A stretch of 64,000 nucleotides of DNA, taken from the NCBI RefSeq assembly GCF_900110705.1, contig NZ_FOEJ01000001.1:69501-133500 (forward strand), given 5' to 3'. Positions 44,217 through 63,132 of the stretch are shown here, one piece after another. Position numbers and translations under genes: made by a program. Within the stretch, counting starts at the first letter, position 1. Every line of letters begins with the position of its first letter. This DNA comes from Loktanella sp. DSM 29012 (GTDB lineage Bacteria > Pseudomonadota > Alphaproteobacteria > Rhodobacterales > Rhodobacteraceae). Below the pieces are notes generated by a model. It was not told the origin of the DNA. It saw nothing but the letters and a program-made list of their open reading frames with translations, and ran no database searches.

Positions 44217-44233
44217 CTTGCCCCCTGCGTATG

Positions 44234-44251: not shown

Positions 44252-44254
44252 GTC

Positions 44255-45160
44255 ATGAGTACCCTCGCAGATCACCCATCCACACCGCGTCGCTGGCCCG
44301 CGCCAAAGGCACTGTTGCGTCTGGTCAAGCCGTGGACATGGTTTCCGCCGATGTGGGCCTACCTGTGTGGCGTCGTGTCCGTCGGCACATTGTCAGCCGA
44401 CTGGACTCTGGTGGCGCTGGGCGTCGTGCTCGCCGGTCCCGTGACCTGCGGCATGAGCCAAGCCGCCAACGACTGGTGCGACCGCCATGTCGACGCGATC
44501 AACGAACCTGACCGACCTATTCCGTCCGGTGCCGTGCCCGGTCGCTGGGGCCTGTGGATCGCACTTGCGATGACCCTGCTGTCGCTGGCCATCGGATGGC
44601 AGCTTGGTGCTTGGGGGTTTGGTGCAACCGCGCTCGCCTGTGCCGCCGCCTGGGCCTATTCCGCCGAACCTCTCCGGGCGAAACGTTCGCCTCTGTGGGG
44701 GCCGCTGCTCTGTGGGCTGGCCTATGAAACCCTGCCGTGGATCACGGGCGCTGCCGTGTTGTCAGCCGGTGCGCCGTCACTCCTCATCATGGTGATCGCC
44801 ACGCTCTACGGGATCGGTGCCTACGGAATCATGGTGCTGAACGATTTCAAATCGGTCACCGGTGACCGCGCACTCGGCCTGCGATCACTGCCCGTCGTCC
44901 TGGGCCCAGCCCGCGCCGCGCGCGTGGCCTGCTGGGCCATGACCTTGCCGCAGATCGCGGTCATCATCCTGCTCGACCTCAACGGCAAGCTGCTGCACGG
45001 CACCGCCGTTGCCGCCCTGCTCGCGATCCAGCTGATCGCCATGCGCACCCTGCTGCGCGACCCGCTGGGACGTGCGCAATGGTATCAAGGCATGGGCATC
45101 CTGTTTTTCATCGCAGGCATGATGGTCACCGCCACCGCCCTGCGCAGTATCGGAGGCTGA
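44255..45160 (+). CDS. bchG: Bacteriochlorophyll synthase (geranylgeranyl transferase)
   Basis: The protein has 301 residues from ATG 44255. It is a UbiA-type prenyltransferase with about 8-9 membrane segments. The first Asp-rich motif is 'QAANDWCDRHVDAINEPDRPIPSG' (core 'NDWCDRHVD') and the second is 'MVLNDFKSVTGDRALGLRSLPV' (core 'NDFKSVTGDRA'), both characteristic of chlorophyll synthases. It esterifies bacteriochlorophyllide a with geranylgeranyl diphosphate. It heads the operon bchG-bch2-bchP-idi with PpsR-like sites in front. Confidence 0.95.
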   Translation: MSTLADHPSTPRRWPAPKALLRLVKPWTWFPPMWAYLCGVVSVGTLSADWTLVALGVVLAGPVTCGMSQAANDWCDRHVDAINEPDRPIPSGAVPGRWGLWIALAMTLLSLAIGWQLGAWGFGATALACAAAWAYSAEPLRAKRSPLWGPLLCGLAYETLPWITGAAVLSAGAPSLLIMVIATLYGIGAYGIMVLNDFKSVTGDRALGLRSLPVVLGPARAARVACWAMTLPQIAVIILLDLNGKLLHGTAVAALLAIQLIAMRTLLRDPLGRAQWYQGMGILFFIAGMMVTATALRSIGG

Positions 45161-45161
45161 T

Positions 45162-46442: not shown

Positions 46443-46444
46443 CC

Positions 46445-47626: not shown

Positions 47627-48156
47627 CGGTGATGATCCCCGCATGGATCGACGGCACACTGACGCCCGTCGAAAAACTGGACGCCCACCTGCGTGGCCTG
47701 CGCCACAAGGCGATCAGCGTCTTTGTCATGCGCGGCGATCAGGTGCTGATCCAGCAACGGGCCTTGGGGAAATACCACACGCCCGGCCTGTGGGCGAACA
47801 CCTGCTGCACCCATCCCGACTGGGGCGAGGATTCGCTGACCTGCGCCACGCGCCGCCTGAACGAGGAACTGGGCATCACCGGCCTGACCATGACCCACCG
47901 CGACCATCTTGAATATCGCGCGGATGTCGGCGGCGGCCTGATCGAACACGAGGTGGTCGAGGTCTATACCGCCGAAGCCCCCGCCGATCTGCCCGTCACC
48001 CCAAACCCCGAAGAGGTCATGGCGACCCGCTGGGTGTCACTGCGTGAACTGATGGCGCAGGTTGAACGCGACCCGGATGCCTTTACCCCTTGGCTGAAAA
48101 TCTACCTCGCAGACCACGCGCAGGCGATCTTTGGCGAGGCAGCGCTGGCGGACTAG
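47623..48156 (+). CDS. idi: Isopentenyl-diphosphate delta-isomerase, type I
   Basis: The protein has 177 residues with the Nudix-like IPP isomerase fold. Active-site segments are 'GLWANTCCTHPDWGED', holding the catalytic Cys, and 'ATRRLNEELGITGL' with the metal-binding glutamates. It interconverts IPP and DMAPP and thereby supplies the prenyl tail and carotenoids. idi closes the bchG operon, as orf176 does in Rhodobacter. Confidence 0.95.
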   Translation: MTVMIPAWIDGTLTPVEKLDAHLRGLRHKAISVFVMRGDQVLIQQRALGKYHTPGLWANTCCTHPDWGEDSLTCATRRLNEELGITGLTMTHRDHLEYRADVGGGLIEHEVVEVYTAEAPADLPVTPNPEEVMATRWVSLRELMAQVERDPDAFTPWLKIYLADHAQAIFGEAALAD

Positions 48157-48931: not shown

Positions 48932-49942
48932 TCAGTCGTAACGCAGCTCTGTCGCCTTACCCCGGAAAATGAAATACGACAGCACGGTATAGCCTGCTAT
49001 GGCTGGCAGCACGAACAGCGTCCCCACCAGAATGATCATCAGGCTCTCGGGGGCCGATGCCGCATCGTAGATCGTGATCTGTTCCGGCACCACATAGGGA
49101 TAGAACGAATAGGCCAGCCCCCCGTAGGCCAAGACGAACAATCCCGTTGCCGCAGCAAACGGCGTCCAGGCCCAGCGATCATCCACGAACGGCAGGCGAC
49201 GCAGCTTCCACCACAGATAGCCGACCAGCGCCATCGACAGGATTGGCAGCGGCGACAGATAACCGATTTCGGGCCAGCTGAACCATTTCTCAAAGATGCG
49301 GAAACTGACGAACGGCGTCGCCAGAGAGATCGCGCCAATGCCCAGTATCAGTCCCCAGATGCCACCCTTGGCCCAGCGCACCGCGTGCTGTTGCAGATCG
49401 CCGTCGGTTTTCCAGATCAGCCAGGCCGCGCCGATGAAACTGTAGCCGACCGTCAGGAACACAGCCGTCAGCACAGCGAAACCGACATGCGGCAGCGTCC
49501 AGGTCAGGCCCATGATGTACATGCCCAGCATGAAACCCTGGCTCAGCGATGCCAGCAGCGACCCGGCAAAGAATGCACCGTTCCACGCCGCCTTTTGCGA
49601 CAACGGGGCCTTGGCGCGCATCTCGAACGACACGCCGCGCAGGATCAACCCGATCAGCATGACGAATACCGGCAGATACAGCGCCGTCAGGATCGCACCA
49701 TGCGCCGGCGGAAACGCCACCAGCAACAACCCGACGGCCAGCACCAGCCACGTCTCGTTCGCGTCCCAGAACGGGCCGATCGACGCGACCAGCCTGTCCT
49801 TTTCATCGTCGTTGGCCAGCGGCATCAGCAGGCCAACGCCCAGATCGAAACCGTCCAGCACCACATAGATCAGGATCGACAATCCCATGAGTGCGGCAAA
49901 GGTCCACGGCAGCCAGACGGCCGGATCACCAAACAGGTCCAT
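48932..49942 (-). CDS. cydB: Cytochrome bd-type ubiquinol oxidase subunit II
   Basis: The protein has 336 residues with eight or nine membrane segments. It has 'YVVLDGFDLGVGLLMPL' at the N-terminus and 'GPFWDANETWLVLAVGLLLVAFP' (core 'PFWDANETWLV'), both standard CydB motifs. It pairs with CydA to bind the haem b/d centre. Two bases separate it from cydA. The oxidase reduces oxygen with ubiquinol without pumping protons. Confidence 0.95.
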   Translation of the reverse strand: MDLFGDPAVWLPWTFAALMGLSILIYVVLDGFDLGVGLLMPLANDDEKDRLVASIGPFWDANETWLVLAVGLLLVAFPPAHGAILTALYLPVFVMLIGLILRGVSFEMRAKAPLSQKAAWNGAFFAGSLLASLSQGFMLGMYIMGLTWTLPHVGFAVLTAVFLTVGYSFIGAAWLIWKTDGDLQQHAVRWAKGGIWGLILGIGAISLATPFVSFRIFEKWFSWPEIGYLSPLPILSMALVGYLWWKLRRLPFVDDRWAWTPFAAATGLFVLAYGGLAYSFYPYVVPEQITIYDAASAPESLMIILVGTLFVLPAIAGYTVLSYFIFRGKATELRYD

Positions 49943-49944
49943 CG

Positions 49945-51333
49945 TTATTCCCCCGGCTGCAATGTGGCGATGTTGACCTCGCCCCGACGCGGATAGCGCC
50001 GGTTCGAGAACGGCTCACCCTTGGTCGCCTTGCGCGCGAGGTAAGTGATCACGCCGATGTAGGCCACGATCAGCACCGCATAGACGGCGAGGTATCCGAT
50101 CAGCGTGCTCAGCACCATGCTGGCGGGCACATCGCTCACCGCGTCCTTGGTCGTCAGCACACCCTGCACCAGCCACGGCTGACGCCCGATTTCGGTCGTG
50201 TACCAGCCCGCCAGCGTCGCGATCCACCCGCTAAAGCTCATCGCGGTAAAGGCCAGCAGCGGCAGCTTGGGCATCTCGCCGGCACCGTAGCGACGCAGCA
50301 GGAACGCACCACCCCAAGACAGCAGCAGCATCGCAACACCCGTGCCGATCATGATGCGAAAGGCATAGAACACCGGGGCCACACGCGGGTGCAATATTTC
50401 GCCATCCTCACCGACAAAGTCATTCAGACCGGGCACCACACCATCCGCCTTGTGCGTCAGGATCATCGATGCACCATTCGGAATGCTGATCTCAAAGTCA
50501 TTCGACCGGGTTTCCTGGTTCGGCACGGCAAACAGCACCAGCGGCACATTCGACTGTGTTTCCCAGTTGCCCTCCATCGCGGCGACCTTGGCCGGCTGAT
50601 ATTCCAGCGTGTTCAGCCCGTGCATGTCACCGGCCAGAATTTGCAGCGGGATCAGCACGGCACCCGTGATGATGCCGAACCGCAACGTGGATTTCACCGC
50701 CTCGCCGCGATCGCCCCACAGCATCCGCAGCGCAGAGATACCCGCGATCAGGAATGCCACCGTCAGGCCGGACGCCAGCATCATGTGCACGAACCGGTAC
50801 GGCATGGAGGGGTTGAAGATGATCTCCATCCAGTTGGTCGCATGGACCACACCGTCGATCACCTCGTACCCTTGCGGCGTGTGCATCCAGGAATTCAGCA
50901 CGATGATCCAGAACGTCGACATCGTCGTGCCGAACGCCACCAGAAACGTCGCCAGCGTATGCACCCAGTTTTTCACGCGGGATGCCCCGAACAGCATGAT
51001 GCCCAGGAACACCGCCTCAAGGAAAAACGCCGTCATGATCTCGTAGGCCAGCAGCGGACCCGCCACGTTGCCCACGGTTTCCATGAACCCCGGCCAGTTG
51101 GTGCCGAACTGGAACGACATCGTGATGCCCGACACCACGCCCATGGCGAACGACAAGGCAAAGATTTTCACCCAGAACATATAGGCGTCCATCCACTTCT
51201 GGTCGCCGGTCTTGTTGAAACGCAGCTTAAAGAACAGCAGCACCCAGCCCAGCGCGATCGTGATCGTCGGGAACAGAATGTGAAATGAAATATTCGCACC
51301 AAACTGGATACGAGAGAGTAGAAGAGTGTCCAC
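49945..51333 (-). CDS. cydA: Cytochrome bd-type ubiquinol oxidase subunit I (short Q-loop, CIO type)
   Basis: About 462 residues. I chose the GTG at 51333 because GGAG lies 7 bases upstream and the protein then begins 'MDTLLLSRIQFGANISFH', like relatives; a TTG at 51348 is possible but lacks a ribosome-binding site. Nine membrane segments hold the haem ligands, including the His of the 'RIQFGANISFHILFP' segment, and the quinol-site segment 'ALGVVSG'-like 'GVVSGITMSFQFGTNW'. The length and lack of a long Q-loop insert indicate the cyanide-insensitive CioA group. It supports respiration at low oxygen or under stress. Confidence 0.93.
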   Translation of the reverse strand: MDTLLLSRIQFGANISFHILFPTITIALGWVLLFFKLRFNKTGDQKWMDAYMFWVKIFALSFAMGVVSGITMSFQFGTNWPGFMETVGNVAGPLLAYEIMTAFFLEAVFLGIMLFGASRVKNWVHTLATFLVAFGTTMSTFWIIVLNSWMHTPQGYEVIDGVVHATNWMEIIFNPSMPYRFVHMMLASGLTVAFLIAGISALRMLWGDRGEAVKSTLRFGIITGAVLIPLQILAGDMHGLNTLEYQPAKVAAMEGNWETQSNVPLVLFAVPNQETRSNDFEISIPNGASMILTHKADGVVPGLNDFVGEDGEILHPRVAPVFYAFRIMIGTGVAMLLLSWGGAFLLRRYGAGEMPKLPLLAFTAMSFSGWIATLAGWYTTEIGRQPWLVQGVLTTKDAVSDVPASMVLSTLIGYLAVYAVLIVAYIGVITYLARKATKGEPFSNRRYPRRGEVNIATLQPGE

Positions 51334-51539
51334 CGCAAGCTCCGTCAAGACAAGTTCATCTGTGACAAGAATTTATGAATTTTGCGGTTGCAGCAAAAGT
51401 CCGTGCGACAATACGCACAGACGACAGACGCGGGTAAATCGCCCCGATTTAAGGGGATTCAAGGTGCTGCGTCAGCAGGTCGCGGACCGGACCTGCCGTT
51501 TGGGTGACGCCGCGACCGTGGCCGCGGCGCCTTTTGCCA

Positions 51540-52523
51540 TCAGTTCAGTGCAGCGTCCGTGATGACGCTGGTCCATGCACCGGTCGGTGCTTCGGAAATC
51601 ACCGGATCGGACCCGCCGGCCAGCAGTGTGTCGACCGTGCGCTGGTAATCAGCCTCGTCCAGCGCGCCGTTCGATCCCGCCGTCAGCATTGCAACCTCGG
51701 ACATCATGCGCTGCTGCGCCTCCAGGCCCTGTGCGCCGGTCATGTCGTTGTCCAACACGATCTGTGCGGCCTCATCGGGATTGGCCTCGGCGTATTTCCA
51801 GCCTTCCATCGAGGCCCGGACAAAGCGTGTCATCTTCTCGACGAACGCCGGGTCCTCCAGGTTTTCCTCCAGCACCCACATGCCGTCTTCCAGCGTGGCG
51901 ACGCCCTGATCCTCATACTTGAACGTCACCAGCTCGTCCGGGCTGACGCCCGCATCCAGCACCTGACCGTATTCGTTGTAGGTCATGGTCGAAATGCAAT
52001 CGGCCTGACGTTGCAACAGCGGATCGACGTTGAACCCCTGCTTCAGCACCGTGACACCCTCTTCACCGCCGTCAGTGGGAATGCCGGCCTGGCTCATCCA
52101 GCTCAGGAACGGGTATTCGTTGCCAAAGAACCAGACGCCGATGGTCTTGCCGCGGAAATCCTCGACCGACGTGATGCCCGTGTCTTTCCAGCAGGTCAGC
52201 ATCAGGCCGGACGATTTGAACGGCTGCGCGATGTTCACGACCGGCAGCCCCTTTTCGCGGGCAGCCAGCGCGCTGGGCATCCAGTTCAGCATCACGTCAG
52301 CCCCACCACCGGCCAGCACCTGCGGCGGCGCGATATCGGGACCGCCAGGCAGGATGGTGACGTTCAGTCCTTCTTCGTCGTAGAACCCTTTGTCCTGTGC
52401 GACGTAATAGCCTGCGAACTGGGACTGCGTGACCCACTGCAATTGCAGGGCCACGTCATTGTCCTGCGCGCTGGCCTGTCCCGCGACAAAGGTCAGCATC
52501 GCCGCTGTCATCAAATGTTTCAT
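51540..52523 (-). CDS. NMT1/THI5-like ABC transporter substrate-binding protein
   Basis: The protein has 327 residues with a signal peptide ending 'AGQASAQD'. Family features are 'LQLQWVTQSQFAGYYVAQDKGFYDEEGL' (core 'QFAGYYVAQDKGFY') and 'GGGADVMLNWMPSALAARE'. The fold is a type 2 periplasmic binding protein, as used for thiamine precursors, riboflavin or nitrate/taurine-type ligands. Because it ends a transcript with dihydropyrimidinase, the ligand is probably a pyrimidine or its breakdown product; this is inference. It is the last gene of the set. Confidence 0.9.
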   Translation of the reverse strand: MKHLMTAAMLTFVAGQASAQDNDVALQLQWVTQSQFAGYYVAQDKGFYDEEGLNVTILPGGPDIAPPQVLAGGGADVMLNWMPSALAAREKGLPVVNIAQPFKSSGLMLTCWKDTGITSVEDFRGKTIGVWFFGNEYPFLSWMSQAGIPTDGGEEGVTVLKQGFNVDPLLQRQADCISTMTYNEYGQVLDAGVSPDELVTFKYEDQGVATLEDGMWVLEENLEDPAFVEKMTRFVRASMEGWKYAEANPDEAAQIVLDNDMTGAQGLEAQQRMMSEVAMLTAGSNGALDEADYQRTVDTLLAGGSDPVISEAPTGAWTSVITDAALN

Positions 52524-52547
52524 ATCGTTCTCCTTGTTGAGGTTACG

Positions 52548-52561
52548 CCGGGTTATCCCGG
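52548..52561 (-). promoter_or_regulatory. Small hairpin between permease and binding-protein genes
   Basis: CCGGG-TTAT-CCCGG pairs over 5 bases in the 43-base gap before the binding-protein gene. Such hairpins often protect the mRNA part coding for an abundant binding protein, but the stem is short. Confidence 0.35.
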
Positions 52562-52566
52562 TCTGT

Positions 52567-53403
52567 TTATCTGCGTTGGCTTGGGTGCCAGAATGTCAGG
52601 ACCTTCTCGATCCCCGCCATTCCCCCGTAAAAAACCGACCCAGCAAGGGCCGCTACCACAATCTCTGCCCAGACAAGGTCCAGCGCAAGCTGCCCCACGC
52701 TGGTCGAGATCCGAAATCCCATTCCCACGGTCGGAGAGCCGAAAAATTCAGCAACAATGGCCCCGATCAGCGCCAGCGTCGTCGCAATTTTCAGCCCGTT
52801 GAAAACGAACGGCAGTGCGGCCGGGATGCGCAACTTGATCAACGTCGGCCAATAACCCGCGCCATAGGTCCGCATCAGGTCGCGCTGCATCGCCGTGGTG
52901 TCGCGCAACCCCGCGACCGTGTTCACAAGGATCGGGAAAAACACCATGACGCCCACCACCGCCGCCTTGGACGGCCAGTCACTGCCCAGCCATTTGACGA
53001 AAATCGGCGCGGTGCCCACGATTGGCAGGGCCGCCATGAAGCCGCCAACCGGCAGGATGCCCCGCATCAGAAAATCGCTCCGGTCCGCCAACACGGCAAC
53101 GCCAAAGGCCGCCAGCGCACCGATCACATATCCGGTCAGCGCACCTTTCAGGATCGTTTGTTCGAAATCCGCCCACAGGACCTGCAGCGACTGGCTGAAC
53201 GTCACCGCAATATCCGACGGCGGCGGCAGGATGATCGGACTGACCCCCGCCATGCGCACGTAAACTTCCCAGATCAACAGGATCGTCAGGCCAAATATCA
53301 CGGGGGCCAGCCAACCGGCCCCCGCAGCGCCCCGTCGCGCCAGCATCAGGTTCAGAAACCATCCGGTGCCCCAGATCACCATGACCGCCGCTGCCGCCAT
53401 CAT
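52567..53403 (-). CDS. ABC transporter permease
   Basis: The protein has 278 residues, starting at ATG 53403 inside the stop of the upstream permease gene (ATGA). Six membrane segments and the EAA-like loop 'GLRDTTAMQRDLMRTYGAGYWPTLIKLRIPAALPFVF' (core 'LMRTYGAGYWPTLIKLRIPA') are those of SsuC/TauC-type permeases. It forms a transport channel with the next permease and the ATPase. The very hydrophobic N-terminus starts at a double ATG. Confidence 0.92.
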   Translation of the reverse strand: MMAAAAVMVIWGTGWFLNLMLARRGAAGAGWLAPVIFGLTILLIWEVYVRMAGVSPIILPPPSDIAVTFSQSLQVLWADFEQTILKGALTGYVIGALAAFGVAVLADRSDFLMRGILPVGGFMAALPIVGTAPIFVKWLGSDWPSKAAVVGVMVFFPILVNTVAGLRDTTAMQRDLMRTYGAGYWPTLIKLRIPAALPFVFNGLKIATTLALIGAIVAEFFGSPTVGMGFRISTSVGQLALDLVWAEIVVAALAGSVFYGGMAGIEKVLTFWHPSQRR

Positions 53404-54317
53404 GCTGCCATCCCCATGCGTTTCAGCGTCACCCGTTCCAGCAACGCGAACAGACCCACAAGGGCCGCCGCGGTGATCGCGGCCGCAAACAACGCAGCCC
53501 ATGTCACCAGTGGCTGGCCGTATTGATCCCCCACCAGCATCCGCGCGCCGAAACCGGCCCGCGCGCCCGTGGGCAATTCGCCGACGATCGCCCCGACGAG
53601 GGAGGCAGAGATCCCGATCTTCAATGACGCGAACAGATAGGGCACCGACGCGGGCAGACGCAATTTCCAGAACCCCTGCGCCGGACCCGCACTGTAGGTC
53701 CGCAGCAGGTCCAGCTGCATCGTGTCAGGACTGCGCAACCCCTTCACCATGCCGACGACCACCGGAAAGAACGACAGATAGGCACTGATGATCGCCTTGG
53801 GCAGCAACCCCTGAATACCGATTGCGCCCATGACCACGATGATCATCGGGGCCAACGCCAGAATGGGGATCGTCTGGCTGGCAATCGCCCAGGGCATCAC
53901 GCTCAGATCCATGGTCCGCGAAAACACGATCCCCACGGCCAGCGCGATGCCCAGCGCCGTGCCCATGCCGAACCCCAAAAGGGTCGCCGACAACGTCACC
54001 CAGCCATGATAGATCAGCGATCTGTTCGAGGTGGGGGCCACGGCAAAAATCGTGTTCCACAATTCCACTACCACCTGCTGCGGTCCCGGCAGTCGCGGCC
54101 GGTCCAGCGTATAGGTCATCGGGATCACCGCCGGATTGCCCAGCGCAAGCGCAAAGGCCCCCACCTCCTGGCGCGCCCGCGCATCGGCGGGTTCCACGAC
54201 GATATCGCCCCGCGCCGCCTGATCTGCGGCCAGATGAATGTTCATCGGCACCACCGCCAGGGTCCAGAACCCCAAGATGAACGCCACGATCGTCAGGACA
54301 GGCAGCACCGATTTCAT
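53400..54317 (-). CDS. ABC transporter permease
   Basis: The protein has 305 residues with an N-terminal membrane segment, a periplasmic loop of about 60 residues, and a BPD_transp_1 domain. The EAA-like loop is 'GLRSPDTMQLDLLRTYSAGPAQGFWKLRLPASVPYLF' (core 'LRTYSAGPAQGFWKLRLPAS'). It resembles the adjacent permease in this loop, so the two form a heterodimeric channel. A partial repeat element lies in the gap between it and the ATPase gene. Confidence 0.92.
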   Translation of the reverse strand: MKSVLPVLTIVAFILGFWTLAVVPMNIHLAADQAARGDIVVEPADARARQEVGAFALALGNPAVIPMTYTLDRPRLPGPQQVVVELWNTIFAVAPTSNRSLIYHGWVTLSATLLGFGMGTALGIALAVGIVFSRTMDLSVMPWAIASQTIPILALAPMIIVVMGAIGIQGLLPKAIISAYLSFFPVVVGMVKGLRSPDTMQLDLLRTYSAGPAQGFWKLRLPASVPYLFASLKIGISASLVGAIVGELPTGARAGFGARMLVGDQYGQPLVTWAALFAAAITAAALVGLFALLERVTLKRMGMAA

Positions 54318-54332
54318 CGCGCACCCATGCCA

Positions 54333-54363
54333 TCATCTTGCCGGAAATACTCCCGCCGGAGGC
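54333..54363. repeat. Dispersed intergenic repeat, copy B (degenerate)
   Basis: The segment reads GCCTCCGGCGGGAGTATTTC on the minus strand and ends near the permease start. The GCC-TCC-GGCGGG-A/G-TATTT part matches copy A. Confidence 0.55.
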
Positions 54364-54389
54364 ACCCGCCCCCACAATCAGCGCCACGC

Positions 54390-55220
54390 TCAATCATCCG
54401 CATGCCCCGCCCGCAAACCATCCCGCACGCGGTGCGCAATCGCGATGAATTCAGGACTGTCACGAATATCCAATGGGCGCTCGCGCGGTAGCGTGCTCTC
54501 GATCACATCCGCGATCCGGCCGGGGCGGGGCGACATCACGACGATCTTGGTCGACAGATACACCGCCTCAGGAATCGAATGGGTGACAAACCCGATGGTC
54601 TTTTCCGTCCGCGCCCACAGCTGCAACAGCTGCTCGTTCAAATGATCGCGCACGATCTCGTCCAGCGCACCGAACGGCTCGTCCATCAGCAGGATATCCG
54701 CGTCAAAGGCCAGCGCCCGCGCGATGCTCGCCCGCTGCTGCATCCCACCCGACAATTGCCAGGGATACTTTCGCGCAAACCCGGCCAGATCGACCAGCTC
54801 CAGCACGCGGCTCACACGCTCCGCCTGTTCGGCCTTGGAATATCCCATGATCTCCAGCGGCAGTTTCACGTTCCCGCCGATGGTCCGCCAGGGATACAGC
54901 CCCGCCGCCTGAAACACATAACCATAGGCCCGCGCCCGCCGCGCTTCGTCCGGCGTCATCCCATTGACACGCAGCGTGCCGCCCGTCGGTGTTTCCAGCC
55001 CCGCGATACACCGCAGGAACGTCGTCTTGCCACACCCCGAAGGCCCGATGAAACTGACGAAATCACCCTTGTCGATGTCCAGACTGACGTCTTTCAATGC
55101 GTGCACCGGCCCGTCATTGGTCTGAAAGGTCAGATCAACAGAACTGGCAGAAATCACAGCTGATCGCGCTGTTTTTGCGGAATGCTCCAAGACTTGAGGA
55201 TCGCCGTCAGCGGACACCAT
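54390..55220 (-). CDS. ABC transporter ATP-binding protein
   Basis: The protein has 276 residues. Walker A is 'GPSGCGKTT' (about residues 59-67), the signature is 'LSGGMQQR' and Walker B is 'ILLMDEPFGALDE', followed by the switch His in 'FVTHSIPEAVYLS'. It belongs to the SsuB/TauB/nitrate-type group that works with NMT1-like binding proteins. The first 25 residues are polar and unmatched, so a later start is possible. It begins 6 bases after dihydropyrimidinase. Confidence 0.93.
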   Translation of the reverse strand: MVSADGDPQVLEHSAKTARSAVISASSVDLTFQTNDGPVHALKDVSLDIDKGDFVSFIGPSGCGKTTFLRCIAGLETPTGGTLRVNGMTPDEARRARAYGYVFQAAGLYPWRTIGGNVKLPLEIMGYSKAEQAERVSRVLELVDLAGFARKYPWQLSGGMQQRASIARALAFDADILLMDEPFGALDEIVRDHLNEQLLQLWARTEKTIGFVTHSIPEAVYLSTKIVVMSPRPGRIADVIESTLPRERPLDIRDSPEFIAIAHRVRDGLRAGHADD

Positions 55221-55226
55221 CTATTC

Positions 55227-56681
55227 TCAAACCCCCGTCGCCGGAATGCCGGACCGCTCCACCGGACGCGGCGCGGTCAGCTCCTTCCAGGACGACAGCG
55301 CCTTGTTCACCGACCCGTTGGGGGCGCGCTTGACGAATTTTCCGTGGCCTTCCTGCGCGCGCATCTCGCCGTCGTGCACGGCAACGTGGCCGCGCGTCAG
55401 GGTAAATCGCGGCAGGCCCTTCACGTGTTTGCCCTCGAACACGTTGTAATCAATCGCACTGACCTGGCTTTCGGCGGTAATGGTCTTTTCCTTCTCCGGG
55501 TCCCAGACCACCAGATCGGCGTCTGCCCCCACCAGCACGGCACCCTTTTTCGGATAGCAGTTCAGGATCTTGGCGATATTGGTCGACGTCACCGCAACAA
55601 ACTCGTTCATCGTCAGCCGCCCGGTGTTCACGCCGTAGGTCCACAGCATCGGCATCCTGTCCTCAAGCCCCCCGGTCCCGTTCGGGATCTTGGTGAAATC
55701 ACCCACGCCATAGCGTTTCTGTTCGGTGGTAAAGGCGCAGTGATCCGTCGCCACAACCGACAACGACCCGCTCTGCAGACCCGCCCACAGGCTGTCCTGA
55801 TGCTGCTTGTTGCGGAACGGCGGCGACATGACCCGCCGCGCGGCATGGTCCCAATCGGCGTTGAAATACTCGGATTCGTCCAGCGTCAGATGCTGGATCA
55901 GCGGCTCGCCCCAAACGCGCTTGCCTTGCATCCGCGCGCGCCGGATCGCCTCGTGGCTGTCTTCGCAAGAGGTATGCACCACATACAGCGGCACGCCGGC
56001 CATATCGGCAATCATGATCGCGCGGTTTGTGGCCTCACCCTCGACCTGGGGCGGGCGCGAATAGGCATGCGCCTCCGGCCCCGTGTTGCCCGCCGCCAGC
56101 AGCTTGGCCGACAACTCCGCCACGACATCACCGTTTTCGGCGTGAACCATCGCAATCCCGCCCAGCTCCGACAACCGGTTGAACGACGAATAAAGCTCGT
56201 CATCGTTCACCATCAGCGCGCCCTTGTAGGCCATGAAATGCTTGAAGGTGTTGATGCCGCGATCCCGCACCACGGTTTCCATCTCGTCGAACACCTGTTC
56301 ACCCCACCAGGTTACCGCCATGTGGAACGAATAATCGCAGGCGGCACGTCCCGACTTGTTGTCCCACATCTGCAAGGCATCCAGCAGACCCTGTCCCGGC
56401 GAGGGCAAGGCAAAATCCACGACCATCGTCGTCCCACCCGAGAGCGCCGCCCGTGTCCCGCTCTCGAAATCATCTGTGGAATAGGTCCCCATGAACGGCA
56501 TCTCCAGATGCGTATGCGGATCGATCCCGCCCGGCATGACATAGCAGCCGGTCGCGTCCAGAACCTCGTCCCCCGTCAGGTCAGGCCCGATCTGGGTGAT
56601 CACACCGCCCTCGATCAGCACATCCGCCTTGTAGGTCAGATCAGCGGTGACAATCGTGCCGTTCTTGATGACTTTGCTCAT
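55227..56681 (-). CDS. hydA: Dihydropyrimidinase
   Basis: The protein has 484 residues of the cyclic amidohydrolase family. Metal ligands are HxH in 'GGIDPHTHLEMPF' (about residues 55-60), the carbamylated Lys in 'FKHFMAYKGALM' (about 150), later His residues in 'YVVHTSCEDS' and Asp in 'VVATDHCAFT'. It opens dihydrouracil and dihydrothymine to N-carbamoyl-beta-alanine or its methyl form. It follows the amidohydrolase gene and precedes the transporter, giving the second step of reductive pyrimidine breakdown. Confidence 0.96.
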   Translation of the reverse strand: MSKVIKNGTIVTADLTYKADVLIEGGVITQIGPDLTGDEVLDATGCYVMPGGIDPHTHLEMPFMGTYSTDDFESGTRAALSGGTTMVVDFALPSPGQGLLDALQMWDNKSGRAACDYSFHMAVTWWGEQVFDEMETVVRDRGINTFKHFMAYKGALMVNDDELYSSFNRLSELGGIAMVHAENGDVVAELSAKLLAAGNTGPEAHAYSRPPQVEGEATNRAIMIADMAGVPLYVVHTSCEDSHEAIRRARMQGKRVWGEPLIQHLTLDESEYFNADWDHAARRVMSPPFRNKQHQDSLWAGLQSGSLSVVATDHCAFTTEQKRYGVGDFTKIPNGTGGLEDRMPMLWTYGVNTGRLTMNEFVAVTSTNIAKILNCYPKKGAVLVGADADLVVWDPEKEKTITAESQVSAIDYNVFEGKHVKGLPRFTLTRGHVAVHDGEMRAQEGHGKFVKRAPNGSVNKALSSWKELTAPRPVERSGIPATGV

Positions 56682-56705
56682 GGGCGTGGTCCTTTATGGT
56701 CAAAC

Positions 56706-56755
56706 TTCTTCTGGTCAAAAATATCCCGGGGGAGGCGCAGCCGGGGGCAGAGCCC
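56706..56755. repeat. Dispersed intergenic repeat, copy C
   Basis: TTCTTCTGGTCAAAAATATC followed by CCGGGGGAGGC and a GC-rich CCGGGGGCAGAGCCCC hairpin fills the gap between dihydropyrimidinase and the amidohydrolase gene. Positions may be off by one base. Confidence 0.75.
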
Positions 56756-58006
56756 CTAGGACACCACCTCTGCCGTCTCGAGCACCGCATGCAGCAGCAC
56801 GTCCGCACCGGCCTTGGCCCAGTCCTTGGTGATCTCTTCGGCTTCGTTGTGGCTCAGCCCGTCGACGCAAGGACACATCACCATCGCGGTCGGGTACAGG
56901 TCGTTGATCCAGCAGGCGTCGTGACCCGCGCCACTGACGATATCCATATGGGAATAGCCCAGCCGTTCGGCAGCTTGACGCACCGCCGCCACACAGCCCT
57001 CGTCGAATGCGGGCGGATCGAACTGACCGACGATTTCGGCGCTGAATTCGACCTCGATATCAGCGCACAGCGCCGGGGCCCTTGCCATCAATTCGTCGAC
57101 CATGCCGTTCAGCTTGTCCAGCAGATGCGTCCGCATATCGATGGTGAACACGACCTTGCCGGGGATGATGTTGCGGCTGTTTGGGTAGACGTCGATATGA
57201 CCGATGGCCCCCACCGCGTTGGGCTGATTTTTCATCGCGATCTCATGGACCAGTTCCGTGATCAGCGCGAGGCCGCGTCCCGCATTCTTACGCATCGACA
57301 TCGGCGTCGAACCGGTATGACTTTCCTTGCCCGTCACCGTGCATTCGATCCAGCGCAGCCCCTGCCCGTGGGTGACGACGCCGATATCCTTGCCCTCGGC
57401 CTCGAGGATCGGACCCTGTTCGATATGCAACTCGAACAACGCGTGCATCTTGCGGTCGCCTACGGGTTCATCACCCTTCCAGCCGATGCGTTCCAGTTCA
57501 TCGCCAAAGCGTTTGCCCTGCGCATCGACCCGGTCATTCGCCCAGTCCAGGTCATGCTTTCCAGCGAACACACCCGACGCCAGCATCGCGGGGGCAAAGC
57601 GCGTGCCTTCCTCGTTCGTCCAGTTCACGACGACAATCGGGTGTTTGGTCTTGATATCCAGGTCGTTCATCGTGCGGATCAGTTCCAGACCGCCCAGAAC
57701 GCCCAGAACGCCGTCGTATTTGCCGCCCGTGGGCTGGGTATCCAGATGACTGCCGACATAGACCGGCAGCGCGTCGGGGTCGGTGCCCTCGCGCCGCGCG
57801 AACATGTTGCCGATCTCGTCGACACCCATGGTCATGCCCGCGTCCTTGCACCACGCGGCAAACAGGTGACGGCCTTCGCTATCCTCATCCGTCAGGGTCT
57901 GGCGGTTGTTGCCACCCGCGACGCCGGGGCCGATCCGGGCCATGTCCATCAGACTGTCCCACAGGCGGTCCCCGTCGATCCGCAGATTTTCCCCCGGTGC
58001 CGCCAT
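56756..58006 (-). CDS. Zn-dependent N-carbamoyl amidohydrolase (beta-ureidopropionase type, M20 family)
   Basis: The protein has 416 residues. Motifs are 'YVGSHLDTQPTGGKYDG' with metal-binding His and Asp, 'NWTNEEGTRFAPAMLASGVF' (core 'TNEEGTRF') with the catalytic Glu, 'ELHIEQGPILE', and the late His in 'SGAGHDACWI'. It fits the HyuC/beta-ureidopropionase group that removes the carbamoyl group as CO2 and NH3, giving beta-alanine. This is the third step after dihydropyrimidinase. It is the first gene of the minus-strand operon, with a RutR-like palindrome 26 bases before its ATG. Confidence 0.93.
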   Translation of the reverse strand: MAAPGENLRIDGDRLWDSLMDMARIGPGVAGGNNRQTLTDEDSEGRHLFAAWCKDAGMTMGVDEIGNMFARREGTDPDALPVYVGSHLDTQPTGGKYDGVLGVLGGLELIRTMNDLDIKTKHPIVVVNWTNEEGTRFAPAMLASGVFAGKHDLDWANDRVDAQGKRFGDELERIGWKGDEPVGDRKMHALFELHIEQGPILEAEGKDIGVVTHGQGLRWIECTVTGKESHTGSTPMSMRKNAGRGLALITELVHEIAMKNQPNAVGAIGHIDVYPNSRNIIPGKVVFTIDMRTHLLDKLNGMVDELMARAPALCADIEVEFSAEIVGQFDPPAFDEGCVAAVRQAAERLGYSHMDIVSGAGHDACWINDLYPTAMVMCPCVDGLSHNEAEEITKDWAKAGADVLLHAVLETAEVVS

Positions 58007-58031
58007 GTTCGATATCCCTCGTCATTCATGA

Positions 58032-58049
58032 TTTGACCGCTTGGTCAAA
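58032..58049. promoter_or_regulatory. rutR: RutR-type operator in the divergent promoter region
   Basis: TTTGACC-GCTT-GGTCAAA is a perfect 7-base inverted repeat. The E. coli RutR consensus is TTGACCANNTGGTCAA; only one base differs (A to G at the inner position). It lies 26 bases before the amidohydrolase start and 118 bases before the regulator start, so it can control both. Confidence 0.85.
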
Positions 58050-58166
58050 CTCACGCTACCACGGGACCTGAATCCGTCAAGCCTGCGCCGCGACAATCCC
58101 GCGCAGCCAGTGCGACGGCACAGCACGCAGGCAGCACCGCCCGAAAAAGCGGCAGCAGGAGAACCG

Positions 58167-58784
58167 ATGGACGACGCAGCGCCCAAGACCCGCATCCAGA
58201 TCCGCAACCGCAAGGTGATCCTGACCGCCGGGCTGGAGGTGTTTTCCGCAAACGGTTTTCGCGGGGCAACACTCGATCAGATCGCGCGCGAGGCAGGTCT
58301 GTCGAAACCCAACCTGCTGTATTATTTTCCGTCCAAGGAGGCGATCTATACCGCCCTGCTGGACGCGCTGCTGGACACATGGCTGGACCCTTTGCGCGCG
58401 CTTGACCCGACGGGCGATCCGATCACGGAAATCCTGGGGTATGCGCAGCGCAAACTGGCCCTCAGCCGCGATTTTCCGCGCGAAAGTCGCCTGTTCGCCA
58501 ACGAGATTCTGCAAGGTGCGCCCATGGTGCGCGACCTTTTGAAAACAGACCTCAAGGCGCTGGTCGACAACCGCGCAGAGGTGCTGCAAAACTGGATGGA
58601 CGCGGGCCTGATCCGCCGCACCGACCCGGTGCACCTGATTTTCTCGATCTGGTCGCTGACCCAGCACTACGCCGATTTCGACGTGCAGATCCGCGCCGTG
58701 CTGGACGAAGAGGACCCGTTTCCCGGCGCGGAATGCTTTCTCGATCAACTCTATCGCAGTCTTTTGGAACCACGCGCCCGTTAG
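58167..58784 (+). CDS. rutR: RutR-like TetR family regulator of pyrimidine catabolism
   Basis: The protein has 205 residues from ATG 58167 with an AGGAGAA site. The TetR helix-turn-helix is 'GATLDQIAREAGLSKPNLLYYFPSKEAIY' (core 'EAGLSKPNLLYYFPSKEA'). The ligand domain with 'LDTWLDPLRAL' and the C-terminal 'LTQHYADFDVQIRAVL' resembles RutR, which is released from DNA by uracil or thymine. It is divergent from the amidohydrolase operon, with the matching palindrome between them. Confidence 0.88.
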   Translation: MDDAAPKTRIQIRNRKVILTAGLEVFSANGFRGATLDQIAREAGLSKPNLLYYFPSKEAIYTALLDALLDTWLDPLRALDPTGDPITEILGYAQRKLALSRDFPRESRLFANEILQGAPMVRDLLKTDLKALVDNRAEVLQNWMDAGLIRRTDPVHLIFSIWSLTQHYADFDVQIRAVLDEEDPFPGAECFLDQLYRSLLEPRAR

Positions 58785-58815
58785 ATCCGTTTTCCTTTCA
58801 ACCAAGGAGAACGAC

Positions 58816-59484
58816 ATGACACATACGCTGACCGTCCAGAAGATCGAACAAGTGACCCACGATACCTATCGGCTGATTTGCAGCAAACCCGACAGCTTTC
58901 GATTCGAAGCAGGTCAGGCAACCCATATGGCGCTGGACAAGGATGGCTGGCGCGACGAGGACCGCGCGTTCACGATGGTCAGCGATCCCGATGCCGAACA
59001 TGTGGAATTCGTGATCAAGTCCTATCCATCCCACGACGGCGTCACCGAACTGGTCCCCGATATCCAACCCGGCGACCGCTGGCTGGCCGAGGATCCGGCC
59101 GGTGCCATCACCGACCACGGTTGCGGCACCTTTCTGGCCGCCGGTGCGGGCATCACGCCGTTCATCGCGATCCTGAACAAACACGCCCGCGAAGGCGTCG
59201 GCGGCGATCACCTGATCTTTGCCAATACCCATGACCGCGACATCATCATGAAGGATACGTGGGATCAGATGGCGGGCGTGACGCCGACCTACGTGATTTC
59301 GGATCAGGACGATACGGCCCACCGCAAAGGCCAACTGGACCGCGCGATGCTGTCTGACATCGGCATCGCCACGGACAAGCCCTGCTACGTCTGCGGGCCG
59401 GGTGAATTCGTCGACGACATCCGTGACGCCCTCAAGGAGATGGGCGTGCCGGAGGACAAGATCATTACCGAAAACGGCTGGTGA
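58816..59484 (+). CDS. FAD/NAD(P)-binding oxidoreductase, ferredoxin reductase-like
   Basis: The protein has 222 residues with an AAGGAG ribosome-binding site. The flavin-binding part has 'FRFEAGQATHMALDKDGWRDEDRAFTMVS' (core 'DEDRAFTMVS', the RxxS/T flavin motif). The NAD(P) domain has 'FLAAGAGITPFIAIL' and ends 'YVCGPGEFVDDI'. There is no iron-sulfur domain. It follows rutR and converges on preA, so it may pass electrons in pyrimidine metabolism, but its partner is unknown. Confidence 0.85.
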   Translation: MTHTLTVQKIEQVTHDTYRLICSKPDSFRFEAGQATHMALDKDGWRDEDRAFTMVSDPDAEHVEFVIKSYPSHDGVTELVPDIQPGDRWLAEDPAGAITDHGCGTFLAAGAGITPFIAILNKHAREGVGGDHLIFANTHDRDIIMKDTWDQMAGVTPTYVISDQDDTAHRKGQLDRAMLSDIGIATDKPCYVCGPGEFVDDIRDALKEMGVPEDKIITENGW

Positions 59485-59496
59485 TTCCGGACGGGA

Positions 59497-59544
59497 CCGG
59501 GGGCGCTGCCCCCGGACCCCCGGGATATTTGACACCAGAAGAAG
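59497..59544. repeat. Dispersed intergenic repeat, copy D, with bidirectional hairpin
   Basis: A CCGGGGGC-GCT-GCCCCCGG hairpin (59497-59515) is followed by ACCCCCGGGATATTTGACACC and AGAAGAA. The second half matches copies A and C on the other strand. It lies between convergent ends of the reductase gene and preA, and may terminate both. Confidence 0.75.
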
Positions 59545-59553
59545 GGCCGGGCC

Positions 59554-60858
59554 TTATTCTGCTGCAACCGCACCGGGGTTGTTGGGATGCGTGGTCCAGT
59601 TGGCATAGTCCTCTTGGACCTCTTTGCCGGTGCGCGGATCAATCGTGCCGGGGTTCATCGCTTCCATCGTGATGCAGTCCGCGACCGGGCAGACATCGAC
59701 GCACAGGTTGCAGGCCACGCATTCGGCGTCGATCACGCTGAAGGTGCGGTCCTCTGACATGGCGATGGCCTGATGGCTGGTATCCTCGCAGGCGGCATAG
59801 CAACGCCCGCAAGAGATGCATTTGTCCTGGTCGATCTTTGCCTTGGCGACGTAGTTCAGGTTCAGGTACTGCCAGTCGGTGACGTTGGGCACGGCACGGC
59901 CGACGAAATCGGCGGTCGAGGTATAGCCCTTTTCGTCCATCCACTGGGACAGGCCCGATTTCATTTCCGAAACGATCTTGAACCCGTAGGTCATGACGGC
60001 GGTGCAGACCTGCACGTTGCCGCAACCGAGCGCCATGAATTCAGCCGCATCGCGCCATGTCGACACGCCACCGATGCCCGAGATGGGCAGACCACGGGTC
60101 GCGGGATCGCGGGCAATTTCAGCCACCATGTTCATCGCGATGGGTTTGACCGCCGGACCGCAATAACCGCCGTGCGTGCCCTTGCCGTCGATCATGGGTT
60201 CGGGTGACATCGCATCGAGGTTCACGGATGTGATCGAGTTGATCGTGTTGATCAGGCTGACCGCGTCCGCCCCGCCGTTTTTCGCCGCCTGCGCGGGTTT
60301 GCGGATATCCGTGATGTTCGGCGTCAGTTTCACGATGACGGGCCGGTCATAGTATTTCTTGCACCAGCGCACGACCATTTCGATATATTCCGGCACCTGA
60401 CCCACGGCCGATCCCATGCCGCGTTCGGCCATCCCGTGCGGGCAGCCAAAGTTCAGCTCGATCCCGTCGGCGTTGGTTTCCTGAACCCGTGGCAGGATGT
60501 CTTTCCATGCCTGTTCCTCGCAGGGGACCATGATCGACGCGATCATCGCGCGGTCGGGGTAGTCTGCCTTGACCCGCGCCATTTCCTCGAGATTGACCTC
60601 CAGCGGGCGGTCGGTGATCAGCTCGATGTTGTTGATCCCCAGCACGCGGCGGTCAGCGCCGTAGATCACGCCGTAGCGCGGCCCGTTGACGTTGACGACG
60701 GGCGGCCCTTCGGCCCCCAGCGTTTTCCACACGACGCCGCCCCAGCCCGCCTCGAAGGCGCGGCGGACGTTGTATTCCTTGTCCGTGGGCGGTGCCGAGG
60801 CCAGCCAGAACGGGTTCGGGCTCTTGATGCCGAGGAAATCAGTGGTCAGGTCAGCCAT
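59554..60858 (-). CDS. preA: NAD-dependent dihydropyrimidine dehydrogenase subunit PreA
   Basis: The protein has 434 residues from ATG 60858 (MADLTTDFLGIKSPNPFWLASA). The FMN barrel resembles dihydroorotate dehydrogenase, with 'LNFGCPHGM' (active-site Cys region) and 'GIGGVSTWRDAAEFM'. The C-terminal part has two 4Fe-4S motifs, 'CISCGRCYAAC' and 'CVACNLCVDVCP'. With PreT it reduces uracil and thymine to the 5,6-dihydro forms, the first catabolic step. It is the last gene of the preT/Fpg/preA set. Confidence 0.96.
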   Translation of the reverse strand: MADLTTDFLGIKSPNPFWLASAPPTDKEYNVRRAFEAGWGGVVWKTLGAEGPPVVNVNGPRYGVIYGADRRVLGINNIELITDRPLEVNLEEMARVKADYPDRAMIASIMVPCEEQAWKDILPRVQETNADGIELNFGCPHGMAERGMGSAVGQVPEYIEMVVRWCKKYYDRPVIVKLTPNITDIRKPAQAAKNGGADAVSLINTINSITSVNLDAMSPEPMIDGKGTHGGYCGPAVKPIAMNMVAEIARDPATRGLPISGIGGVSTWRDAAEFMALGCGNVQVCTAVMTYGFKIVSEMKSGLSQWMDEKGYTSTADFVGRAVPNVTDWQYLNLNYVAKAKIDQDKCISCGRCYAACEDTSHQAIAMSEDRTFSVIDAECVACNLCVDVCPVADCITMEAMNPGTIDPRTGKEVQEDYANWTTHPNNPGAVAAE

Positions 60859-60866
60859 GGTATGTC

Positions 60867-61655
60867 CTATCGTCGTTGAGTCTGGTGAGCGGGGCAATGG
60901 TAGGATGTGCGCCCGCCGACGGTCATCTTGGTGATGGTGCCGTCGCATCGCGTGCAATCGGCACCATCGGTGCGGTTGTGGATCAGCCAGTCGCGGGGCA
61001 GCTGGCTGTAATCCGCGTTCTTGTCCATCACGGTGCCCATCACGTCCTGCACCGTCGTGTGCAGTGCTGCGATCTGCTCGGCGGGCAGATCGCTCGCCTT
61101 GGCGTCCGGCATGATGCCAGTGCGATAGAGCGATTCATCCGCCCAAAGGTTGCCCACGCCCGCCAGCTTGCCCTGATCCAGAAGCGCAGATTTCACAGCA
61201 CCCCGCGTGCCGCCGATCACATTGGCAAAGGCATTGTCGCCAATCTGCATCGCATCGGGACCCAGCCCCTTGTCGGCAACGAACTGGTCAACGTCCGCGA
61301 CCATCTGCACGTGCCCGAACTTGCGTGGATCACGAAATGTCAGGCGGCGACCGCCCTCGAAATTCACGGTCAATCGGGCGTAATCGGGCACATCGCCGCC
61401 GTCGTCCCAGACCCGCAAACTGCCTGCCATGCCCAGATGGATATGCATCCAGGGCCCATCCACAGACCCCGCAAAGATGTATTTGCCGTGCCGATGCGTG
61501 CGCGTCAGCTGTGTGCCGATGAACCGGTCCAGCTGATCTGTTGGCGGCAGGTCCACATGCGACACCTCGCCGATCGTGAACCCCTCGATCGTGCGGTGCA
61601 GACAGTGGTCCGCGATCCGGCGACGCGCGGCATCGGCTTCGGGCAGTTCAGGCAT
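60867..61655 (-). CDS. Fpg/Nei-family DNA glycosylase paralog
   Basis: The protein has 262 residues. The N-terminus 'MPELPEADAARRRI' keeps the nucleophilic Pro2 and Glu3. The middle holds 'HGKYIFAGSVDGPWMHIHLGMAG' (core 'HGKYIFAG', with the conserved Lys) and 'ALLDQGKLAGVGNLWADESLYRTGI' (core 'LAGVGNLWADE'). The C-terminal finger is C-x2-C-x16-C-x2-H ('DCTRC' ... 'SYHCPAHQ'), in which the last Cys is His, and it retains the 'GGRTSYHC' arginine. It is probably a base excision glycosylase/lyase. It lies between preT and preA, overlapping preT by 8 bases. Confidence 0.9.
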   Translation of the reverse strand: MPELPEADAARRRIADHCLHRTIEGFTIGEVSHVDLPPTDQLDRFIGTQLTRTHRHGKYIFAGSVDGPWMHIHLGMAGSLRVWDDGGDVPDYARLTVNFEGGRRLTFRDPRKFGHVQMVADVDQFVADKGLGPDAMQIGDNAFANVIGGTRGAVKSALLDQGKLAGVGNLWADESLYRTGIMPDAKASDLPAEQIAALHTTVQDVMGTVMDKNADYSQLPRDWLIHNRTDGADCTRCDGTITKMTVGGRTSYHCPAHQTQRR

Positions 61656-62970
61656 CGCCGACCAGGGCGCTGTGAATGTCCATCGCCGAATCGCGCCCTT
61701 GGGCGACGGCCGTCACGGTCAGATCATCGCCACCCTGTGCGCAATCGCCACCCGCCCAGACGCCCATCCGTGTGGTACGGCCGGCACCCGTCACCTTGAT
61801 CTTGCGGTCCTCGATCATCAGGCCACCGTCTGTGGTCAACGTCTGACCGATGGCACGGAACACCTGGTCTGCGGGAATGCGAATGGTCTCGCCCGTCCCT
61901 TTCAGGCCTGTGCCATCGTCCGCGGTATATTCCAGCGCGATTTCACCATCGTGGATCGCGTGCGGCTGGACATTGAACATGATCCGCACGCCGTGGCTGG
62001 CGGCCAGATCCTGTTCATAGCGGCTGGCCCCCATCCGGTCGCGGTCGCGGCGATAGGCAATGGTTACGGCCTCTGCCCCCAGCAGCTTGGATTGCACGGC
62101 CGCGTCCACGGCCGTCATACCGCCGCCGATGACGACGACATGCCGTCCGACGGGCAGTTGGGTCAGGTCCGTCGCCTGCCGCAATTCCGCGATGAAACTG
62201 ACGGCATCCGTCACGCTGTCATTGTCGTCACCGTCTGCGCCGAGGGCATTCACACCGCCCAGACCAACCCCCAGAAAGACGGCGTCAAAATCGGCCGAGA
62301 GGTTGTCCAGCGTCAGATCCGCGCCCAGCGCACGGCCGGTTTCCAGCGTGATCCCACCGATCTGCATCAGCCATGCGGCTTCGCGGGCGGCGAAATCATC
62401 GGTGCTCTTGTAGGCCGCGATCCCGTATTCGTTCAGACCACCCGGTTTGGGGCGTGCGTCATACAGCGTCACGTCATGTCCCAGTATCGCCAGACGGTGC
62501 GCACAGGACAGGCCCGCCGGACCTGCGCCGACGACGGCCACGCGCTTGCCCGTTTCAGGCGCACGGGTGAACGGATGACCTTGCCGCGCCATCAGTGTAT
62601 CGGTGGCATGGCGTTGCAGACGACCGATCTCGACCGGTTTGCCCTCGGCCAACTCGCGCACGCAGGCACCTTCGCACAGGTCTTCGGTCGGGCAGACGCG
62701 GGCGCACATGCCGCCCAGAATATTGGCGTCAAAGATGGTCCGTGCCGCCGCCTCTGGCGTACCGGTGGAAATCTGGCGGATGAACAACGGGATATCGATG
62801 TCCGTGGGGCAGGCGGTCACGCAGGGCGCGTCATGGCAGAAATAGCAGCGGTCGGCGGCGACCAGCACCTCGTGCGGGTCAAGCGGCGCGTGCAGGTCGG
62901 CAAAGGCTTCGGCCAGCGCATCCGCGCTCAGGCGGCCTGCGGCGATTCCGGGGGCAGTGGTTGATGTCAT
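61648..62970 (-). CDS. preT: NAD(P)-dependent dihydropyrimidine dehydrogenase subunit PreT
   Basis: About 440 residues from ATG 62970 (with GAGG upstream); ATG 63000 is an alternative. The N-terminal iron-sulfur domain has cysteine motifs in 'CYFCHDAPCVTACP' and 'CARVCPTEDLCEGAC'. It is followed by the FAD motif 'VAVVGAGPAGLSCAHRLA' and the NAD motif 'HVVVIGGGMTAVDAAVQS'. It resembles the glutamate synthase small chain and passes electrons to PreA. It heads the minus-strand operon with a RutR-like site upstream. Confidence 0.93.
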   Translation of the reverse strand: MTSTTAPGIAAGRLSADALAEAFADLHAPLDPHEVLVAADRCYFCHDAPCVTACPTDIDIPLFIRQISTGTPEAAARTIFDANILGGMCARVCPTEDLCEGACVRELAEGKPVEIGRLQRHATDTLMARQGHPFTRAPETGKRVAVVGAGPAGLSCAHRLAILGHDVTLYDARPKPGGLNEYGIAAYKSTDDFAAREAAWLMQIGGITLETGRALGADLTLDNLSADFDAVFLGVGLGGVNALGADGDDNDSVTDAVSFIAELRQATDLTQLPVGRHVVVIGGGMTAVDAAVQSKLLGAEAVTIAYRRDRDRMGASRYEQDLAASHGVRIMFNVQPHAIHDGEIALEYTADDGTGLKGTGETIRIPADQVFRAIGQTLTTDGGLMIEDRKIKVTGAGRTTRMGVWAGGDCAQGGDDLTVTAVAQGRDSAMDIHSALVGDA

Positions 62971-63021
62971 GGCGGCCTCGGTCGTTGTCTGGATCACCAT
63001 CAGCTTTGCACGGTTTTATTT

Positions 63022-63037
63022 TTTATCAAATGGTAAA
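63022..63037. promoter_or_regulatory. RutR-like operator upstream of preT
   Basis: TTTATC-AAAT-GGTAAA is an inverted repeat matching TTGACCANNTGGTCAA at 11 of 14 fixed positions. It lies 52 bases before the 62970 preT start (or 22 before 63000). It is weaker than the site at 58032 but is correctly placed. Confidence 0.55.
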
Positions 63038-63132
63038 TTTTAGGCAGCTTGTGAACTTGCCCTGGCCGGCGCTCTGGCACTGGCGCATCCCGATCCGATC
63101 CGCAATGATGCAGGTCCAGTGGCCAGGGACGC

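Follow-up and report, generated by a model that had tools for sequence, protein, structure and literature searches.

Does a single regulator govern both the import of pyrimidines and every step of their reductive breakdown? The question is raised by a 64,000-nucleotide stretch of the Loktanella sp. DSM 29012 genome (hereafter the window), in which the genes of the reductive pyrimidine pathway and of an ATP-binding cassette (ABC) importer lie on either side of a rutR-like TetR gene. An earlier note on this DNA had proposed one RutR-like regulon comprising PreTA, dihydropyrimidinase, the carbamoyl hydrolase and the importer, and conservation of the predicted sites among relatives supports that proposal, in which the regulation itself is read from sequence. 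We judge, at a probability of about 0.88, that a RutR-type repressor and conserved sites control the genes of pyrimidine import and breakdown.

The regulator gene (58167..58784, plus strand, 205 aa) lies between two palindromes, where the earlier note had placed it, and its assignment draws on profile, Pfam and structure-relative matches. The protein matched the RutR profile TIGR03613 at E 1.7e-62 (210.9 bits, under the equivalog cut-off of 368) and NF011584 at 194.7 bits (under the cut-off of 230), its PF00440 TetR_N and PF08362 TetR_C_3 'YcdC-like' domains (the latter at 3.7e-43) were both above the gathering scores, and its closest solved relatives were RutR entries, with 3loc_A at E 2.7e-51. 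The ligand of E. coli RutR is uracil, held by residues W77, Y97, W167, Q171 and Q179 (PMC10891134); all five were identical at the aligned positions in the regulator and in 100 of 100 orthologues. The same 100 orthologues also never depart from S, K and P at the positions that correspond to 51-53 of E. coli RutR, which has S, K and T. By its domains, uracil-contact residues and 16-bp palindromic operator, the regulator would fit a broad RutR/PydR-like class of TetR proteins. RutR was found at E<=1e-40 in 124 of the 149 genomes of the family, its own included; of the 123 relatives in this count, 100 supplied a rutR locus for comparison.

A second RutR-like regulator, ~37-40% identical, stands beside rutR in 11 of these 100 loci (L032, L034, L040, L041, L042, L044, L050, L056, L057, L065 and L090), and carries P and A in the recognition region where rutR has S and P. 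That this paralogue and not RutR owns the sites is scarcely credible: its place beside rutR and its identical ligand residues, in 11 of 11 cases, would permit it, but no such paralogue, and no second close RutR, was seen in the genome of the window, where the regulator's next match reached E 1.8e-5 and the RutR family model's 40.3 bits; the reading would require a paralogue hidden in an assembly gap.

The two palindromes that the earlier note had placed one base off the consensus and at 11 of 14 positions were both read directly in the window, at the coordinates given there. Against the RutR box, which we take to be TTGACCANNTGGTCAA, the sequence at 58032-58049 (TTTGACCGCTTGGTCAAA) matched at 13/14 and that at 63022-63037 (TTTATCAAATGGTAAA) at 11/14. 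The former contains the predicted operator of the divergent hyuC/rutR region (58033..58048, no strand assigned, TTGACCGCTTGGTCAA), and the latter is the predicted preT operator (63022..63037, no strand assigned), which reads TTTACCATTTGATAAA on the preT strand. The hyuC site was the sole one in the window within 1 mismatch of the box, and the whole 3.42 Mb genome held 3 such places. At <=3 mismatches the box occurred 5 times in the window against 1.93 expected, and 5 was reached in 6 of 100 shuffles; the preT site taken alone is therefore not significant there. Its own asymmetric form, TTTACCRNTTGATAAA, was found at <=2 mismatches once in the genome, at the preT place and with no mismatch, whereas the reversed control pattern gave 3 genome matches within 2 mismatches. 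The hyuC-side site stands by itself; the preT-side site is the stronger of the two once relatives are counted.

The earlier note had suggested looking for these palindromes beside preT and hyuC in related genomes, and the sites proved to be conserved across the family. Among the 100 rutR loci, 88 held hyuC in the stretch, 69 held preT and 67 both, and in every one of the 88 loci with hyuC that gene and rutR stood on opposite strands. With loci of <100 bp upstream sequence dropped from the counts, the box was present at >=12/14 upstream of hyuC in 63 of 88 cases, compared with a mean of 0.07 in shuffled sequence and of 0.08 (maximum 5) for permuted consensus sequences, and a degenerate form of the operator was present at >=13/14 in 68 of 88. 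In the window, the hyuC-type carbamoyl amidohydrolase gene occupies 56756..58006 on the minus strand (NF006769, 688.1 bits vs a cut-off of 452; TIGR01879, 385.7 vs 204).

Upstream of preT, the form that is conserved is the asymmetric one, which was found at >=13/14 in 59 of 67 regions, whereas neither 30 shuffles nor permuted forms gave any. In an enlarged set it was present at >=12/14 in 89 of 106 regions, where L083, having no upstream sequence, was dropped and L094 was counted although its wrongly extrapolated upstream made it unusable. The site is also found where preT lies away from rutR: of 28 such regions, taken from 30 with G030 and G124 left out, 27 carried a site at >=12/14 by either form and the remaining one at 11/14; for some of them (e.g. 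G142 and G069) preT and rutR lie on different short contigs, so that their distance is unproven. In the window, preT (61648..62970, minus strand) is named by its Fer4_20 and Pyr_redox_2 domains and its place, with no NCBIfam cut-off reached. By eye, a second operator-like sequence was seen upstream, ~17 bp from the preT operator, at L008, L026, L031 and L069; its abutting position suggests tandem binding.

The preT site was then compared between genomes with and without RutR, the latter defined by no match at E<=1e-40 (5 of them deduced from gaps in the match list) and contributing preT regions from 10 of 11 genomes, with G147 cut by a contig end. By a single operator pattern, drawn up after the RutR-bearing set had been viewed, the site was present at >=12/14 in 95 of 95 RutR-bearing regions, 28 of which come from places away from rutR, and in 3 of 10 RutR-lacking ones, at >=13 in 92/95 vs 3/10, and at >=11 in 95/95 vs 5/10. 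The sequences share descent and are not independent, which makes the p-values here and in the register analysis below no more than indicative, and L094 was dropped from both. Controls at >=12/14 gave 0.7 per 105 in mononucleotide shuffles and 0 of 105 inside preT. The preT site is in part lost together with RutR.

The promoter elements described here were read from conservation. On the hyuC side, relatives (68 loci) have in common CTTGACTG followed by TGnTAGCGT; 16 bp separate the two hexamers, and the operator starts 4 bp past the -10. In the window, a putative -35, TTGACG (58075..58080, minus strand), lies within a CTTGACTG element conserved at this distance, and is followed after 16 bp by a putative extended -10 (58053..58061, minus strand, TGGTAGCGT), whose counterpart TGnTAGCGT keeps the same spacing to the operator in relatives. 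This part of the window runs TTGACG, 16 bp, TAGCGT with a preceding TGG, GAGT and TTGACCAAGCGGTCAA; the hyuC operator would lie just downstream of the -10.

On the preT side, the right half of the operator contains TTGATA (63024..63029, minus strand), and a second conserved block, yTGTGGCAnnC, follows it by 10 bp (51 cases) or 11 bp (32 cases) in 83 of the 89 regions examined; after shuffling, the log-likelihood stayed under half of that of the real regions. When TTGATA is read as a -35, the spacer to the CAnnCT hexamer is 16 or 17 bp, as in 81 of the 88 operators with a scored block. The corresponding -10 in the window would be AAAGCT (63002..63007, minus strand), 16 bp from TTGATA, a weak hexamer here whose register is taken from relatives. 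The preT open reading frame (ORF) opens at 63000, and a start codon at 62970 is preferred because the predicted transcription start falls downstream of 63000.

The TGTGGCA block could also be viewed as the -24 element of a sigma-54 promoter, which would place preT under nitrogen control and make the palindrome incidental, given that the block includes TGGCA and that the pathway yields nitrogen. This is very improbable: the 16 or 17 bp spacing in 81 of 88 operators counts against it, and a sigma-54 promoter at preT was rejected on finding GG-N10-GC in just 11 of 79 regions.

The shape of the preT operator is consistent with a -35 embedded in its right half. The twelfth base was A, not G, in 96% of the 89 regions, and the operator would fall short of a perfect palindrome because TTGATA, within its right half, has to serve as a -35 as well. 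The A was found in 78 of 81 operators where the block stood in register and in 9 of 17 elsewhere. G stood at the twelfth base with the block out of register at L066 and L092, and A was present with no block found in register at L091, L103 and L142. At L011 and L038, by eye, an operator carrying G was followed downstream by a distinct hexamer, TTGATA or TTGTCA, which was 16 bp from a -10 hexamer.

The same features bear on the strongest alternative, that RutR has its operator at hyuC/rutR alone, and that the strongly conserved asymmetric element at preT is mostly core promoter (a -35 together with A-tracts) or is bound by some other factor. Its asymmetry, its overlap with the putative -35 and its retention in G063, which has no close RutR, would all fit. 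But the two halves are about equally invariant, although no promoter element calls for the left one, TTTACC (the rows were picked by match, which raises the apparent invariance of either half to the same degree), and at L011 and L038 the operator stands apart from the -35 and has G there. The preT site is moreover absent in 7 of 10 RutR-lacking genomes, and in G014 (L105), by eye, the GTGTGCCAGTCT block is kept without the operator. We consider this alternative unlikely, and prefer control of both sites by the RutR-type repressor.

Several observations weigh against that preferred reading. The regulator falls below the cut-offs of both RutR equivalog models (TIGR03613 and NF011584), 20 of the 88 hyuC upstreams carried no site at >=13/14, and a generic sigma-70 scan reported neither the hyuC nor the preT promoter. 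Scored with the symmetric E. coli box at >=11/14, the preT upstreams gave 50 of 67 and one permuted consensus gave 43, for which reason the asymmetric form is the right description of the preT site. Genome-wide, degenerate sites were no commoner than the reversed pattern, 4 vs 5 in this genome and 29 vs 26 summed over five genomes of the genus. At L041, L053 and L077 the operator was in register and yet had G, not A, at the -35 position. The preT site was kept without a close RutR in G063 (99% complete; 12/14 by the asymmetric form), which looks like a true exception to the pairing of RutR with the preT site, and in the drafts G028 and G118 (86% and 84% complete), while G059, the opposite exception, encodes a RutR-like protein at 174.8 bits, below the cut-off, and has no preT site.

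In the mechanism that we propose, binding, ligand and direction of control are taken from E. coli RutR. Both uracil and thymine are ligands of that protein. The TetR protein of 58167-58784 would be a RutR/PydR-type repressor sensing a pyrimidine (uracil or thymine). Its ligand-free dimer, on the operator just past the -10 of hyuC, would block the presumed hyuC-hydA-ABC operon and probably rutR itself, and on the preT operator, whose right half would be the -35, it would keep RNA polymerase off the presumed preT-fpg-preA operon. Ligand would free the repressor, and uptake and all three steps of the reductive pathway would be switched on together. In the genus, the regulator probably also controls deoC and an aldehyde dehydrogenase-like gene, which would join the disposal of deoxyribose to that of the base. 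It is fairly probable that the RutR regulon of the family comprises import, the whole reductive pathway and, in some members of the family, deoC, and that the asymmetry at preT was selected as the half-site is also the -35. If so, repressor and RNA polymerase would read the same preT bases, and the symmetric base would return where the operator lies off the -35, as in a few genomes. The loci provide a natural series of operators that set repressor symmetry against promoter function, and a testable promoter-operator map for pyrimidine use across a whole bacterial family.

The deoC gene enters through another close site in the genome, TTGACCGAATGGTCAA at C9:220200, which lies between deoC and a divergent rpe; the aldehyde dehydrogenase-like gene follows deoC (gene names by eye from translations). 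deoC was found at E<=1e-60 in 31 of the 61 genomes searched, and a site at >=13/14 lay shortly upstream in 16 of 30 deoC loci, all 9 genomes of the genus included; one of the 30, L178, was cut at a contig end and unable to show a site. In the other sequence of 29 deoC loci, with ~400 bp on each side of the gene ends removed, no such site occurred in 87,522 bp, and none was present at the deoC locus of G011, which has no close RutR. deoC is thus likely to be a further RutR target, by the evidence of these sites. Three other genomic matches were rejected as members of the regulon: C7:161396 lies inside a frame taken by eye for dxs and is conserved with that frame in two relatives, and C10:397100 and C15:2673 lie inside frames that look unrelated.

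At class level, RutR was found at E<=1e-35 in 29 of 240 genomes searched, three of them belonging to the family. Of 27 rutR loci outside the family, 19 had an operator-like site at >=13/14 and 17 a neighbouring preT, preA, hyuC or hydA match; at L218, one of the 19, the site lies beyond the gene at its far side. Some preT-like matches are perhaps not true preT. The reductive pathway is accordingly a common neighbour of RutR-type regulators outside the family too (17/27 loci).

The remaining genes of the locus are as the earlier note had described them, but it passed over an Fpg/Nei-type DNA glycosylase gene that separates preT from preA. This gene (60867..61655, minus strand; Pfam above cut-off, NCBIfam below) overlaps preT by 8 bp; it is rare in relatives, with matches at 44-49% in L039 and L083 of the 100 rutR loci, and the other Fpg/Nei-type match in the genome, 34% identical, lies at ~30673-31518 of the window. 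preA follows (59554..60858, minus strand; NF006183 PreA, 722.6 bits vs a cut-off of 335). On the other side, the dihydropyrimidinase gene (55227..56681, minus strand; TIGR02033, 601.9 bits vs a cut-off of 393.25) precedes the importer genes, which span 55220-51540, all on the minus strand: an ABC transporter ATPase assigned by family matches (54390..55220), permease 1 (53400..54317; PF00528), a putative permease 2 (52567..53502; an ORF overlapping permease 1, of uncertain start codon, with the same neighbour in many relatives) and an NMT1-type substrate-binding protein (51540..52523; PF09084, 2.5e-38). Directly 3' of rutR, a gene whose family matches are to FAD/NAD(P) oxidoreductases (58816..59484, plus strand) begins 31 bp after it; relatives of this gene were seen at L077 of the 100 loci and L115 of 40 further loci, and its product may pass electrons to PreTA, or the gene may share RutR control. 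Farther away, 44231-48156 resembles by eye the end of a photosynthesis cluster, with bacteriochlorophyll genes (bchG, a PucC-like carrier and bchP) and idi, and two minus-strand frames at 48932-51348 resemble by eye cytochrome bd oxidase subunits.

Regulons of this kind have precedents. RegPrecise reportedly holds such a RutR regulon for Rhodobacterales. Leyn et al. (2016; PMC5343134) described RutR as a regulator of pyrimidine catabolism with taxon-specific motif changes, and predicted that it governs 743 genes in 68 genomes, which represent 13 groups of proteobacteria. Those regulons would likely overlap with preT, hyuC and deoC. In Pseudomonas putida, PydR (Hidese et al. 2012, as cited in PMC7332683) is reported to be RutR-like and to repress the gene for dihydropyrimidine dehydrogenase, an enzyme of the reductive pathway; like the regulator of the window, it is a RutR-like regulator tied to this pathway, a likeness drawn from the title and not from sequence. 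PydR is not known to share the promoter layout, the ABC importer or the deoC target. The circuit is thus of a known kind, since PydR and predicted proteobacterial RutR regulons exist. Searches of open-access papers turned up none that describes the preT layout or a tie to deoC, deoC itself not having been queried.

Another close known system is E. coli RutR (PMC10891134; structures 3loc, 4jyk, 6z1b), which has the same domains and uracil-contact residues and counts rutR among its targets. It controls rutA-G, rutR and carAB there, whereas the regulator of the window would control the reductive pathway and an ABC importer. The earlier note's distinction from the Rut pathway of E. coli stands, since no RutA in the genome exceeded the family cut-off (best 45.7 vs 498.3 bits; the other rut genes were not searched), and unlike E. 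coli RutR the regulator scores under the RutR equivalog cut-offs. One of 10 relatives tested for RutA, G153 of the same genus, was positive (626 bits, C63:20597-21655) and also has a hyuC/rutR locus; therefore both pathways may share one RutR there. The operator of E. coli RutR, whose letters we take as given above, is likewise a 16-bp palindrome. With the RutR-like PydR of P. putida on record, a departure of this kind from E. coli has a precedent. No known scheme is overturned; what this locus likely adds is a link to deoxyribose breakdown, and the promoter layout and the deoC target may be new details of an otherwise familiar circuit.

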